Positions 3,600 through 24,193 of a stretch of DNA of 37,194 nucleotides are shown in pieces. Position 1 is the stretch's first letter. Every line of letters begins with the position of its first letter. The DNA is from Flavobacteriaceae bacterium (GTDB lineage: Bacteria; Bacteroidota; Bacteroidia; Flavobacteriales; Flavobacteriaceae), in assembly GCA_023954685.1 (NCBI GenBank), contig JAGSHF010000006.1:1-37194 (forward strand), read 5' to 3'. A model generated the notes under the pieces. The model made no database searches, was not told the DNA's origin, and was given only the letters and a program-made list of their open reading frames with translations. The translations under genes and the position numbers were made by a program.

Positions 3600-4259
3600 T
3601 TAAAACAGTTGATATAGAGTTGTTACGATACGTCCATTATTATGTGCTAGAATATACTCGCAAAGCTGTTTTTTATCTATGATGTTTAAATCAAAAGGAG
3701 TTTCCAATAGGTTAACACCACTATTTTTTTTCAACCTAATCCCTTGTCCAGAAATGATGTCTTTGTTTGGAACAAAATTTCCAACTGGAATATGTTCCGT
3801 TAGGATCATGTATTTATAAGACACTAATTTTTTAATAACACCTTGTATTTCTATATTAGATAGGTGTTGTAATACTTGTCTTAATATAATACAATCTCCA
3901 TTTGGAAGTTCATCTTTTGAAATATCCAAACAATGAAATTCTAAATTGTTTTCTTTATATAGTTTTTGATTCCTTATTATAAGGGGTTCAACAATATCTA
4001 TTCCTATATATTTTTTAGTGTACTTAGTTAGGTGTTTTCCAATATTGAAATCGCCACAACCTAGATCACATACTATTAGAGGAGAATGATAAGACTTTAA
4101 AAAGGCAATTATGACCTCTAAATAGGGGTTGATAATTTCGGGATCATGTGAACCTGCACCCGAATAAAAATCAAACGTTGTCCCACCCCAAAGGTTCAAG
4201 TCATAAATTTGATGCATGACCGCTTTAGTAGGCCAAGGTTGTTTTGGGTTTTTTGCCAC
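3600..4259 (-). CDS. Class I SAM-dependent methyltransferase
   Basis: A 219-residue soluble protein with the Rossmann glycine loop VCDLGCGDFNIG at 63-74, an acidic post-motif (GIDIVEP at 86-92) and the later strand GDCIILRQVLQHLS at 121-134, all typical of class I methyltransferases. The substrate is unknown. It starts with GTG at 4259-4257, directly against the TAA of the upstream RNA methyltransferase with no intervening base, so translational coupling is likely. The GTG is preferred over the ATG 14 codons in, because NPKQPWPTK looks like conserved coding sequence. Confidence 0.85.
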   Translation of the reverse strand: MAKNPKQPWPTKAVMHQIYDLNLWGGTTFDFYSGAGSHDPEIINPYLEVIIAFLKSYHSPLIVCDLGCGDFNIGKHLTKYTKKYIGIDIVEPLIIRNQKLYKENNLEFHCLDISKDELPNGDCIILRQVLQHLSNIEIQGVIKKLVSYKYMILTEHIPVGNFVPNKDIISGQGIRLKKNSGVNLLETPFDLNIIDKKQLCEYILAHNNGRIVTTLYQLF

Positions 4260-9509: not shown

Positions 9510-9696
9510 AAGCCCCTATTTATAGATAAAAAGAATGTACTACCAAATCGTTCATTTTTTATTTAGCTATCATCGTAAACTACAAGTAATTAGTATTTGG
9601 AATAAGAAAACACCCTCTGAATGGAAGAATTAAAATACTGGACGACATCCACAGAAAATTATTTATTTTGCATGTATATAAAGTTAACTTAGTGTC

Positions 9697-10542
9697 ATGT
9701 TTGAATCTTTGGCGAATAGAAAAACAACCATGTGGCCAAAAGGTAGCAGCATTTACATAGAAACAGTTGTTATTATTTTACTAGCCATAGTTTCAATGTC
9801 CCTCGAGTACGGCAAGCTCGATTCTACCTTTTTGCGAAGCCCTCAATTGGGAGTGAGGGTCGTTGGAAGCTTATGCATATGGTTTGCGAACAAATTCACT
9901 CTAGATTATATACTTCAGTCCAGAATTGACTCCAATAAGGTGTCCCAATACCTGCCATTTGAGATGACTATAGCTTCTGTTGCCGTGACATCGATAATCT
10001 ACCTTGTTTTTTATCCGATTTTACTCCATCTAAACGATTTGAGTTTTGTATGGACCAAATTTCTTCATGGGCTTTTTGTTACCTCAGGTCTCAGTTTACT
10101 AATTGTGATTTTTTATGCTGGTATTCATATTTGGAGATCTTGGTGGAGCGATGGCGAATTCTTATTCCGTATAAAAATTAACGAACAAGCTGAAAACGAA
10201 TGGAAAGACTTTATAACGATAAAAAATTCCAGAGAGACGGTCAATATTGAGCTCACTAAAGTGAACTACTTCATAAGTGAATTTAAGATTGTATTTTTGG
10301 TCGATACATCGGGAAAAAAATGGATCACCCAATACAATCTCTCTGAGCTTGAAAAGAGCCTCGATGACAGGTTTTTTAGATTGAATCGAAGAATTCTGGT
10401 TAGTCGTCAGATTATCTCCCATATTAAAAAGCTGTCAAATCATCGGCTTCTCGCAACCATTGGTCAAGAAAATGAAAGTCACAAAGAGACGATTAGCAGA
10501 TATAAGTCCACGAGATTTAAACAATGGTTTCACAGCGATTAG
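9697..10542 (+). CDS. Membrane-anchored LytTR-family DNA-binding regulator
   Basis: A 281-residue protein. The N-terminal half has about four transmembrane helices (SIYIETVVIILLAIVSM, LGVRVVGSLCIWFA, MTIASVAVTSIIYLVFYPIL, LFVTSGLSLLIVIFYAGIHI). The C-terminal half, about 165-275, is a LytTR domain: FITIKNSRETVNIELTKVNY, a short beta-rich core, NLSELEKSLDDRFFRLNRRILV and the tail SRYKSTRFKQWF. It has no receiver domain, so the membrane part is probably the sensor. A tandem direct repeat of LytTR-operator geometry lies just after the stop, before the CPBP gene. An ATG 11 codons in is an alternative start. Base composition looks richer in G+C than the neighbours. Confidence 0.88.
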   Translation: MFESLANRKTTMWPKGSSIYIETVVIILLAIVSMSLEYGKLDSTFLRSPQLGVRVVGSLCIWFANKFTLDYILQSRIDSNKVSQYLPFEMTIASVAVTSIIYLVFYPILLHLNDLSFVWTKFLHGLFVTSGLSLLIVIFYAGIHIWRSWWSDGEFLFRIKINEQAENEWKDFITIKNSRETVNIELTKVNYFISEFKIVFLVDTSGKKWITQYNLSELEKSLDDRFFRLNRRILVSRQIISHIKKLSNHRLLATIGQENESHKETISRYKSTRFKQWFHSD

Positions 10543-10547
10543 CAATT

Positions 10548-10582
10548 AGTGACCATTCAGTAATAATTCAATGACCATTCGG
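10548..10582. promoter_or_regulatory. Tandem direct repeat, probable LytTR operator
   Basis: AGTGACCATTCAG (10548-10560) and AATGACCATTCGG (10570-10582) match at 11 of 13 positions. The identical 9-mer TGACCATTC starts at 10550 and 10572, 22 bp apart or about two helical turns. Known LytTR sites (such as those of AgrA) are paired 9-bp direct repeats with 12-13 bp between. It lies between the LytTR gene and the CPBP gene, about 75 bp before the latter's ATG. Confidence 0.65.
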
Positions 10583-10654
10583 AAAATGATTTGCCCTAGC
10601 GTTAATAATTAACATGACAGTGTTGGTTATTTGCACTTATAAACAAATCATTTT

Positions 10655-11284
10655 ATGGATAATAAAAAAACACTCATCGGATTAATCGTATTTCTCGGGA
10701 CACCATTTATTTTTAAGTTTTTGCACATTGAGAACATTTTGTTACGCGAAGTAGGTATATGGTTTCTTCTACTATTTTCCTTAATTTCATGGATCTATTT
10801 TGTTGAGAAGCGAACTATTGCTTCCATTGGATGGAAAAAAATAACAGCAAAAACGGTCTTTGTTGGAATAGGGCTCGGACTAGTTGCTTTTATTCTTTTC
10901 GGTATTTCAAACGTTGTTATTCAAGCACTAGGACTTGAACTCAGCCAAGAAACGGGGGAGCTATTTGCAAGCCAGCCCTTTCTCGTGCTCATGTTTATAG
11001 CACTTAGAGCAGCTGTAGTTGAAGAAGTACTCTTTCGAGGATATGCCTTCGAGAGGATTAACGAATTGATAAAGTCTAAATGGATTGCGGCACTTGTGCC
11101 TGTAATCATTTTCATGTTATTGCACTTGTCCTGGGGTATTGGACATCTCATATTCGTATTCTTTGTCGGCGGATTATTCATGCTCATTTATATTTCAAAA
11201 AGAAATCTGGGAATGGTAATGATTGCACATTTTATAATTGATTTTATTGCTATACTTATATTGCCTATGATGCTAGACGCTTAG
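10655..11284 (+). CDS. CPBP-family intramembrane glutamic endopeptidase
   Basis: Polytopic membrane protein of 209 residues with six to seven helices. The CPBP/Rce1 catalytic motifs are intact: EEVLFR with E123, E124 and R128; H157 in FMLLHLSWG; and H192/D196 in IAHFIID. Relatives are CAAX-type proteases or bacteriocin self-immunity proteins; some are chaperone-like. It lies 112 bp behind the LytTR regulator with the tandem operator in the gap, so regulation by that protein is likely. No bacteriocin-like small ORF is visible next to it. Confidence 0.88.
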   Translation: MDNKKTLIGLIVFLGTPFIFKFLHIENILLREVGIWFLLLFSLISWIYFVEKRTIASIGWKKITAKTVFVGIGLGLVAFILFGISNVVIQALGLELSQETGELFASQPFLVLMFIALRAAVVEEVLFRGYAFERINELIKSKWIAALVPVIIFMLLHLSWGIGHLIFVFFVGGLFMLIYISKRNLGMVMIAHFIIDFIAILILPMMLDA

Positions 11285-11458
11285 CAAAGCCCCGCCCCCA
11301 TGACTTTAAATTGCTCTAATTATTTCATAATCATTGCCTTATTATGCTTTTGTCATCACATTAATTTATCAAGATTAAATAGGATTTCTTCATAAAAAAG
11401 AAAGCTATATATACCCAGAAAGTATTATGTGGCAATGGTAAACTGAGGGAGAATAGGT

Positions 11459-11589
11459 GCTAACACTTGGTATAACCAATTTCTTGTTCTGTGTGTACTC
11501 GGAAAATCCTACGGATTTTCCTCTGGTTTGTTTTCTTTTGCTAACTTAGTTCTTGCCAATGGAACTAGCCATACACAAACACGCAGGCA
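11459..11589 (+). repeat. Cassette-type inverted-repeat site 2 (after the CPBP gene)
   Basis: The left core is GCTAACACTTGGTATAACC. A perfect central hairpin GGAAAATCC-TAC-GGATTTTCC lies at 11501-11521, a CTAACTTAGTTCTTG box at 11541-11555, and the right core CATACACAAACACGCAGGCA ends at 11589. From 11489 about 40 bp match the site at 14819 with one mismatch. The stretch 11285-11458 before it holds no gene or clear signal. Confidence 0.85.
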
Positions 11590-11663
11590 ATGCTAAAAGA
11601 ACATCGAATAGTACAAATAGAAAAGAAGTTTACAGCAATCTTTTGAACTTAAAGAACCGTTTT

Positions 11664-14787: not shown

Positions 14788-14917
14788 GCCCAACACCATG
14801 TAAAGCCAATTGCTGGTGCTGTGTGTACTCGGAAAATTCTACGGATTTTCCTCTGGTATGTTTACTTTTATTAACTTAGACCTACCAACGTAACTTTCCA
14901 TATACAAACACGTTAGC
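14788..14917 (+). repeat. Cassette-type inverted-repeat site 4 (after the BASS gene)
   Basis: The left core is GCCCAACACCATGTAAAGCC. The central hairpin GGAAAATTC-TAC-GGATTTTCC (one mismatch) is at 14831-14851, the TTAACTTAGA box at 14871-14880, and the right core TATACAAACACGTTAGCA ends near 14918. It is almost identical to site 2 over the hairpin segment. Confidence 0.85.
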
Positions 14918-14939
14918 AAAAATTTAAAAACCACCCGAG

Positions 14940-15452
14940 ATGAATAAAATATTACTGACATCAATTATCATATTTTTTTCCTGCAGTTCAATTTTTGGAC
15001 AATCTAAGGATGAAAAATATGTGAAAGATGTTAAATCAATAGATGCAATAATAAATGCATATTATGATGTTGTTTCAGGTTCAGGTAATGAACCATGGGA
15101 ATTTGAAAGAGATAAATACATTCATTCAGAAAAAGCTGTAATTACTAGACTGGACGAAAATGGAAAAGCTGAATCGCATACTCTTGAAGCAGAATATATA
15201 CCAATAGGATTATCACCAAAAGAGGATTTTTATGAAAAAGAATTGAAAAGAAAAGTCAGCAATTATGGAAATATTGCACAAGTTTGGAGTGCTTTTGAAA
15301 TACGAACTGACCCAAACGCTGAATCTAAAATTAAAGGACTTAATAGTATCCAACTACATTATGAAAATGAGAGATGGTATATTGACAGTTGGACTTGCCA
15401 AATGGAATCTGATAAAAACACTATTGTGACTGACTTTTTAAATAAAGAATAA
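14940..15452 (+). CDS. Secreted NTF2/SnoaL-like protein
   Basis: A 170-residue protein. The signal peptide ends near residue 21 (SSIFGQ). The mature domain has the order of an NTF2-like cone fold: helix SIDAIINAYYDVVSGS, strands with KAVITRLDENGKAESHTLEAEY, and a final sheet IAQVWSAFEIRTDP ... GLNSIQLHYENERWYIDSWTCQ. These domains act as small hydrolases or isomerases, or only as binding modules; no catalytic residue can be picked with confidence. It starts 22 bp after the right core of site 4. Confidence 0.75.
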   Translation: MNKILLTSIIIFFSCSSIFGQSKDEKYVKDVKSIDAIINAYYDVVSGSGNEPWEFERDKYIHSEKAVITRLDENGKAESHTLEAEYIPIGLSPKEDFYEKELKRKVSNYGNIAQVWSAFEIRTDPNAESKIKGLNSIQLHYENERWYIDSWTCQMESDKNTIVTDFLNKE

Positions 15453-17829: not shown

Positions 17830-17912
17830 TTCGGTGTGCAATGAATTATAGGTTTCTTTCTTTTTTCTAACTTAGTTCTTGATGCAACTTACTATACGCG
17901 AGCACGTTGTGC
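17830..17912 (+). repeat. Partial cassette-type site (right half only)
   Basis: TTTCTTTCTTTTTT, then the box CTAACTTAGTTCTTG at 17867-17881 identical to site 2, then the right core CTATACGCGAGCACGTTG near 17891-17910. The central hairpin is missing. The stretch 17913-18115 up to the next gene holds no other recognisable feature. Confidence 0.65.
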
Positions 17913-24060: not shown

Positions 24061-24193
24061 TCGCCAGTGTGTTTGTGTATAACCAGTTATGTAGATTCAC
24101 AACTAAATTAATAAAAGAAAATGACCCAAAAGAAAATTAGTGCGATTTTCATAGTACTCACAAAACGCGTCACTAATTATAAACACTGTTGAT
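24061..24193 (-). repeat. Cassette-type inverted-repeat site 5, minus orientation
   Basis: Read on the minus strand: left core ATCAACAGTGTTTATAATT (24193-24175), central hairpin GAAAATCGCACTAATTTTC (24150-24132), box TTATTAATTTAGTT (24113-24100) and right core TATACACAAACACACTGGCG (24080-24061). It lies between the DHFR-like gene and the oxidoreductase gene, with the same internal order as the plus-strand sites. Confidence 0.8.

Follow-up and report, generated by a model that had tools for sequence, protein, structure and literature searches.

A membrane-anchored LytTR regulator, a tandem-repeat operator, and a CPBP protease gene conserved as a two-gene module in Flavobacteriaceae

The Regulator Gene and Its Protein

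The window, that is, the whole stretch of 37,194 nucleotides from a Flavobacteriaceae bacterium analyzed here, harbors on its forward strand two neighboring genes with a pair of direct repeats between them. The first gene (9697..10542, +), an open reading frame kept in six loci that make up clade 1, encodes a membrane-anchored LytTR one-component regulator of 281 aa. The protein consists of a membrane half of about four helices, as deduced from hydropathy and low-confidence AlphaFold helices (residues ~18–145; 9748..10131, +), followed by the LytTR DNA-binding domain (10234..10530, +), which matches PF04397 over residues 180–278 with an E-value of 2.9e-12 and a score of ~47–49 bits, above the curated cut-off of 22.6. 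The FxRxNR and SRY residues of this domain are invariant among 29 homologues. LytTR is the sole Pfam match of the window regulator, in which a receiver domain is absent according to the Pfam search, and no Pfam domain match was found for the membrane half. The original prediction of a LytTR protein with a membrane half and without a receiver domain is thus confirmed by the Pfam match and the hydropathy profile, its position included.

By hydropathy, the window copy has three strong transmembrane segments, compared to four for most homologues. An AlphaFold model of the regulator built with four sequences displays four long helices at a mean pLDDT of 52, a low confidence that makes it too poor for a fold search, and a sequence search against solved structures returned no match. 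Since the sensor half is almost devoid of extramembrane parts, the signal for the regulator probably lies in the bilayer or on another membrane component. Thirteen of the 15 LytTR domains of the genome are found in proteins that start like ordinary receiver–LytTR response regulators, and the only membrane LytTR proteins are the window regulator and a member of a different family on C157. This other membrane LytTR family, which also lacks a receiver domain and bears a PYPFY motif near its start, is represented by L041:1125–2033 and by the protein on G000:C157 (L096).

The CPBP Protease Gene

The second gene (10655..11284, +) encodes a CPBP/Rce1-like intramembrane protease of 209 aa with seven predicted transmembrane segments, whose match to the Rce1-like family (PF02517) has an E-value of 4.6e-17 and a score of 62.5 bits against a cut-off of 22.4. 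The protein contains the catalytic motifs EEVLFR (EExxxR; 11021..11038, +) and FMLLH (FxxxH; 11111..11125, +) as well as the motif HFIID (HxxxD; 11228..11242, +), and the corresponding residues, namely E123, E124, and R128 in the first, F153 and H157 in the second, and H192 in the third, are shared by at least 95% of 29 homologues from two clades. Both the Pfam match and the three motifs bear out the earlier view of an intact CPBP intramembrane protease gene.

In bacteria, CPBP proteins are chiefly known for their roles in bacteriocin immunity and peptide processing. By analogy with the immunity proteins, the CPBP protein of the module might act as a protease and, once induced, alter or protect the envelope, a proposal that is held tentatively. 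The CPBP protein might instead be a non-protease membrane enzyme or partner, e.g., an acyltransferase or a sensor cofactor, a reading that would leave the regulatory part of the module the same and that is regarded as unlikely. A study on a two-component acyltransferase reportedly deals with CPBP proteins and was counted for this alternative. The induction of hemolysis by Abx1 is also independent of protease activity (PMC3578759). However, the conservation of the catalytic residues at this level over clades whose CPBP proteins share 22% identity points to the usual catalysis.

Between the window and the Eudoraea locus L039, the regulator, the spacer, and the flanks are ~90% identical, whereas the CPBP genes (10655–11284 in the window and L039:5964–6590) are only ~72–80% identical, and four-fold sites are identical at 31/60 positions in the CPBP gene versus 70/91 in the regulator gene. 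This looks like the replacement of a CPBP allele beside an unchanged regulator, and such a swapped allele would fit a fast-changing effector.

An Operator Conserved between the Two Genes

The intergenic region contains two exact copies of TGACCATTC, at 10550 and 10572, with a period of 22 bp. Within them, repetition, conservation, and the operator search described below define half-site 1, ACCATTCAG (10552..10560, +), and, 22 bp further on, half-site 2, ACCATTCGG (10574..10582, +). In the window sequence alone, the repeat is only moderately unlikely as a product of chance, with a 9/9 match at an offset of 19–24 bp arising in 1.2% of mononucleotide shuffles of the window intergenic region; it is the comparison across loci that provides the proof. 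Over the six clade-1 spacers, mean identity amounts to 88% in the repeat columns, 69% in the bases between the repeats, and 62% in the remainder, compared to 29–67% at the four-fold-degenerate codon sites of the clade-1 loci. Moreover, among all possible placements of two 9-bp blocks at a 22-bp period in these spacers, the best conserved one coincides exactly with the repeats.

The other loci of this clade were recovered by protein searches. Relatives of the regulator from a search of 84,980 genomes comprise those of a Eudoraea (91%), a Saprospiraceae MAG (66%), and a Flammeovirgaceae MAG (57%), all of them with the same gene order and with a 9+9-bp repeat of 22-bp period between the genes; the closest named relative of the window locus is the uncultured Eudoraea, a member of the Flavobacteriaceae. 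Gene order and repeat are also kept in two Flavobacteriaceae loci (L049 and L050) found with the membrane half alone, so that the order LytTR gene, repeat, CPBP gene holds in 5/5 further close homologues of the regulator retrieved by protein search. The joint conservation of the gene pair and the spaced repeat, which had been set beforehand as the test of the module, is therefore found in all close homologues. The regulator gene of the Saprospiraceae MAG (L040:3751–4601) shows a frame break after ~46 codons, attributable to a sequencing error or to decay. When 395 genomes of the class were searched with the clade-1 membrane half, the window was the sole match and, thus, clade 1 appears to be rare. 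No relative was found in viral contigs, and plasmids yielded merely LytTR-domain matches of less than 35% identity.

A second clade (L010 and L012) emerged from weak protein matches of ~21–23% identity over the entire regulator (~20–25% for the clade), met by protein search ahead of any operator search. Its regulators likewise contain membrane helices, with a CPBP gene next in order, and the spacers carry ACCATTCAG...ACCATTCAG and ACTATTCAG...ACCATTCAG, respectively, with the same 22-bp period directly after the regulator gene. The two clades share 16% identity in the membrane halves, 33% in the LytTR halves, and 22% in the CPBP proteins; despite this divergence, the operator is nearly identical in both. 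Since the second clade lacks the leading TG of TGACCATTC, which is confined to clade 1, while the operator is otherwise nearly identical, the true core conserved across both clades is ACCATTCRG, and the operator was refined to ACCATTCAG-N13-ACCATTCRG. Therefore, of the repeats originally noticed 22 bp apart after the LytTR gene, the two positions, the exact copies, and the period, which is kept in the homologues, have stood up to the comparison, but the leading TG does not belong to the core. The statement that no other LytTR gene has a CPBP neighbor was withdrawn, since the clade-1 CPBP profile on which it relied was too narrow and missed the neighbors of L010 and L012, which Pfam confirms as CPBP genes.

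A Blind Operator Search in Flavobacteriaceae

The association between operator and genes was also approached from the DNA alone. When 399 Flavobacteriaceae genomes were scanned for ACCATTCAG-N13-ACCATTCRG, allowing one mismatch at most and using no protein information, 33 sites in 32 genomes were retrieved versus 4 for a reversed-pattern control. Twenty-nine of these 33 sites are flanked on one side by a LytTR gene and on the other by a CPBP gene, all on the same strand, and the four remaining ones equal the control rate. Of the 30 sites recovered as loci, 27 are preceded at 2–27 bp by the end of a LytTR gene and followed, on the same strand, by a CPBP gene; as for the last three sites, two are the module and one is not. 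The loci were chosen by their operator, which renders the information content of the operator circular in this set, while its association with both genes is not circular. In the 27 loci, the CPBP start codon lies 72–77 bp past the operator, and their flanks (~640 bp upstream and ~760 bp downstream) contain no protein family common to any two of them. The module is present in 29/399 genomes, so that 7% is a lower bound for its frequency in the sampled Flavobacteriaceae, and its distribution is patchy within genera (1/9 and 1/4 genomes in two cases).

In all loci examined, the operator separates the regulator gene from the CPBP gene that follows it, and a strong match occurs about once per genome, between these two genes. 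The possibility of a second operator site in the window genome was considered and discarded, the two-mismatch matches being located inside coding frames and looking like chance. It could be argued that the locus is a mere adjacency of an ordinary LytTR gene, an unrelated protease gene, and a coincidental repeat, and the 1.2% of shuffles that yield the window repeat would be compatible with this. Nevertheless, the conservation in all close homologues, the second clade, and the 29/33 sites found blindly refute chance adjacency, which was rejected with practically no probability left to it. The comparison confirms the two-gene module and extends it beyond one locus to further Flavobacteriaceae and some relatives.

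Promoter Geometry and Proposed Mode of Action

LytTR sites are built of 9-bp direct repeats 10–13 bp apart (PMC11347149), a pattern to which ACCATTCAG-N13-ACCATTCRG conforms in both clades, and the LytTR protein very probably binds this operator. The homologue conservation and the 29/33 operator sites lend good comparative support to the original suggestion that the regulator would control the protease gene. On these sequence-based grounds, the module is probably a one-component membrane switch dedicated to one main target, in which the operator-bound LytTR protein would control, and most likely activate, the CPBP gene. The regulator would be anchored by about four membrane helices with its LytTR domain on the cytoplasmic side, and it would sense a signal in or at the membrane. 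Two LytTR domains would then bind the two ACCATTCRG half-sites, located two helical turns apart just after the regulator gene, and the bound regulator would govern the transcription of the adjacent CPBP gene, activation being the most likely outcome.

The region downstream of the operator bears on this last step. A promoter-like element conserved in position, TTATTTG (10627..10633, +), follows the operator by 44 bp and is a candidate -7 element, and TTATTT-like elements are found 43–44 bp past the operator in 24/27 operator-found loci. TTATTTG agrees poorly with the flavobacterial consensus TAnnTTTG, perfect boxes of which lie upstream of the regulator gene in 9/27 loci and upstream of the CPBP gene in 1/27. 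In eight clade-2 loci, the TAnnTTTG box is located ~35 bp upstream of the regulator. In L040 (~3738–3753) and L049 (~1489–1503), it precedes the regulator ATG by a few bases, which suggests that the regulator mRNA of these two loci is leaderless or nearly so.

Activation of the CPBP gene is deemed likely, since the operator lies well upstream of the sole strongly conserved promoter-like element and since perfect -7 boxes are found upstream of the regulator far more often than upstream of the CPBP gene. Most LytTR proteins bound upstream act as activators (PMC11347149), which also argues against the regulator being a repressor of the CPBP gene that is released on a membrane signal. Such a repressor would resemble CoxC, a characterized membrane-bound LytTR regulator that represses its target (PMC11347149), and repression would be feasible if CPBP transcription started closer to the repeats. 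However, the CoxC operator overlaps the -35 box, whereas here the operator ends 43–44 bp upstream of the promoter-like element, and repression is considered rather unlikely.

Possible Feedback from the Protease to the Regulator

The protease might also act back on the regulator, the original suggestion being that it cuts or senses the regulator in the membrane. In such a closed loop, which would add to the activation of the CPBP gene by a membrane-bound regulator without excluding it, the CPBP protein would also cleave the membrane half of the regulator, or bind it and hold it off. Both genes encode membrane proteins and only these two are conserved. Moreover, in clade 2, the divergence of the CPBP protein tracks that of the membrane half beyond that of the LytTR half, with a partial correlation of 0.45 (permutation p 0.002) against 0.21 (p 0.14) for the comparison correlation, although the former may merely reflect the greater variability of the membrane half. 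A precedent exists in the Abi/CPBP protein Abx1, which binds to CovS, a histidine kinase, and modifies its signaling (PMC3578759). Nevertheless, the window and L039 tolerate a changed CPBP protein (~72%) beside a nearly unchanged regulator (~90%), and the apparent swap of the CPBP allele argues against a tight co-adaptation. On balance, a closed loop is more doubtful than not, and it is best regarded as a minor possibility.

Two further ideas on the function of the module were examined. No convincing common frame indicative of a conserved small peptide gene emerged from the short ORFs that flank or separate the genes in the window and in L039, with a short common reading frame over the spacer as the sole exception. 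A role as a defense system was rejected, since neither protein of either clade has a PADLOC match.

Relationship to Known LytTR and CPBP Systems

Several characterized systems share part of this arrangement. The LytTR regulatory systems (LRS) HdrRM and BrsRM of Streptococcus mutans also comprise two genes for a LytTR protein and a membrane protein, with no kinase or receiver, and 9-bp direct repeats 11–13 bp apart with half-sites that start with ACC and have the same orientation towards the promoter (PMC6193735). The HdrR and BrsR sites, ACCTCTTAG-N12-ACCACTTAA and ACCACTTAT-N12-ACCGCTTAT (PMC6193735), have half-sites that resemble those of ACCATTCAG-N13-ACCATTCRG in sequence and orientation. 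However, LRS employ a distinct membrane inhibitor encoded downstream of the regulator, whereas here the regulator itself spans the membrane; LRS repeats lie upstream of the operon promoter and mediate autoregulation, whereas here they lie between the genes; and the second gene here encodes a CPBP protease. The module is not an LRS, since it has no separate membrane inhibitor and its repeats are not upstream of the regulator. Similarly, CoxC of Afipia carboxidovorans (MHYT–LytTR) is a single-component, membrane-bound LytTR protein without a receiver, but it has a 7-TM MHYT domain, three repeats, and a function as a repressor of CO oxidation genes (PMC11347149), whereas the module described here has about four transmembrane segments, two repeats, and a CPBP target. 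Since Pfam detects no MHYT domain (PF03707) in the regulator, the module is not CoxC-like.

With regard to the target gene, the closest parallel is SilA–SilX of Streptococcus anginosus, in which a LytTR regulator controls a neighboring CPBP/CAAX protease gene, silX, with a predicted tandem-repeat site upstream (PMC9298176). In that case, SilA is a soluble response regulator that is paired with the kinase SilB, and its quorum-sensing and bacteriocin locus also contains a peptide gene (PMC9298176), whereas kinase, receiver, and peptide genes are lacking here. Finally, Abx1–CovS of Group B Streptococcus also ties a CPBP/Abi membrane protein to a membrane sensor, but there the sensor is a histidine kinase, the interaction has been shown, and the genetic arrangement and the operator differ (PMC3578759). 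By its mode of action, the module belongs to the LytTR one-component systems, with a CPBP gene as its target. As originally supposed, no described system has exactly this make-up, at least in the titles, abstracts, and passages searched, which exclude subscription literature and preprints.

The module thus represents a compact regulatory unit defined by an operator sequence, two proteins, and one predicted main target. It makes kinase-free signaling from a membrane-embedded LytTR protein to DNA testable, as well as the role of bacterial CPBP proteases outside bacteriocin loci and their talk-back to a sensor, and its operator motif provides a handle for identifying further members that lack protein similarity.

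Possible Mobility and attC-like Repeats

The module appears to have a cassette-like extent. The block common to the window and the Eudoraea locus L039, as delimited by BLASTN (9512..11465, +), stops sharply on both sides, and its right border coincides with an attC-like repeat of approximate extent (11462..11600, +), recognized by its recurrence and its hairpin. Further copies of the segment 11462–11549 are found in the window at 14792, 17851, and 24166 as well as outside it, bringing the number found in the genome to about eight; the predicted fold of the element is an imperfect hairpin (z -3.0). The repeats of the window (11462–11600, 14792–14940, 17851–17910, and 24101–24166) have a consensus near CAACAACGTGTATAATTAATTGC ... 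GGAAAATCC..GGATTTTCC ... CATACACGAACACGTTG. Groups of unrelated genes lie between them, giving this part of the window the appearance of a gene-cassette array.

attC-like elements accompany the module, at its edge or nearby, in the window, L039, L116, L123, and L130, and a strict attC pattern beside the module was detected at 2/30 loci upstream and 2/30 downstream versus 0/70 controls, being absent at most loci. No integron integrase was recognized in the window genome, which is ~80% complete and whose tyrosine recombinase scored 82.8 against an IntI cut-off of 265 bits. Cassette arrays can lack an integrase. Thus, the module seems to travel as a gene cassette in some genomes, which is not claimed as its general mode.

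A bolder picture combines several of these elements into a mobile, self-contained switch, in which a four-helix LytTR protein would sense a disturbance of the bilayer or a membrane-active peptide and, from a dedicated operator, induce a single intramembrane protease that removes the offending membrane substrate and also silences the sensor. This scenario is improbable as a whole; if true, it would define a separate class of kinase-free sensors in Bacteroidota. Another type of repeat accompanies one of the clade-1 loci, as the region downstream of the G760 module (L050:1–400) contains several near-copies of a non-coding repeat, CATTCC..GGAATGGACCAGA..CTCCTGCAAA.
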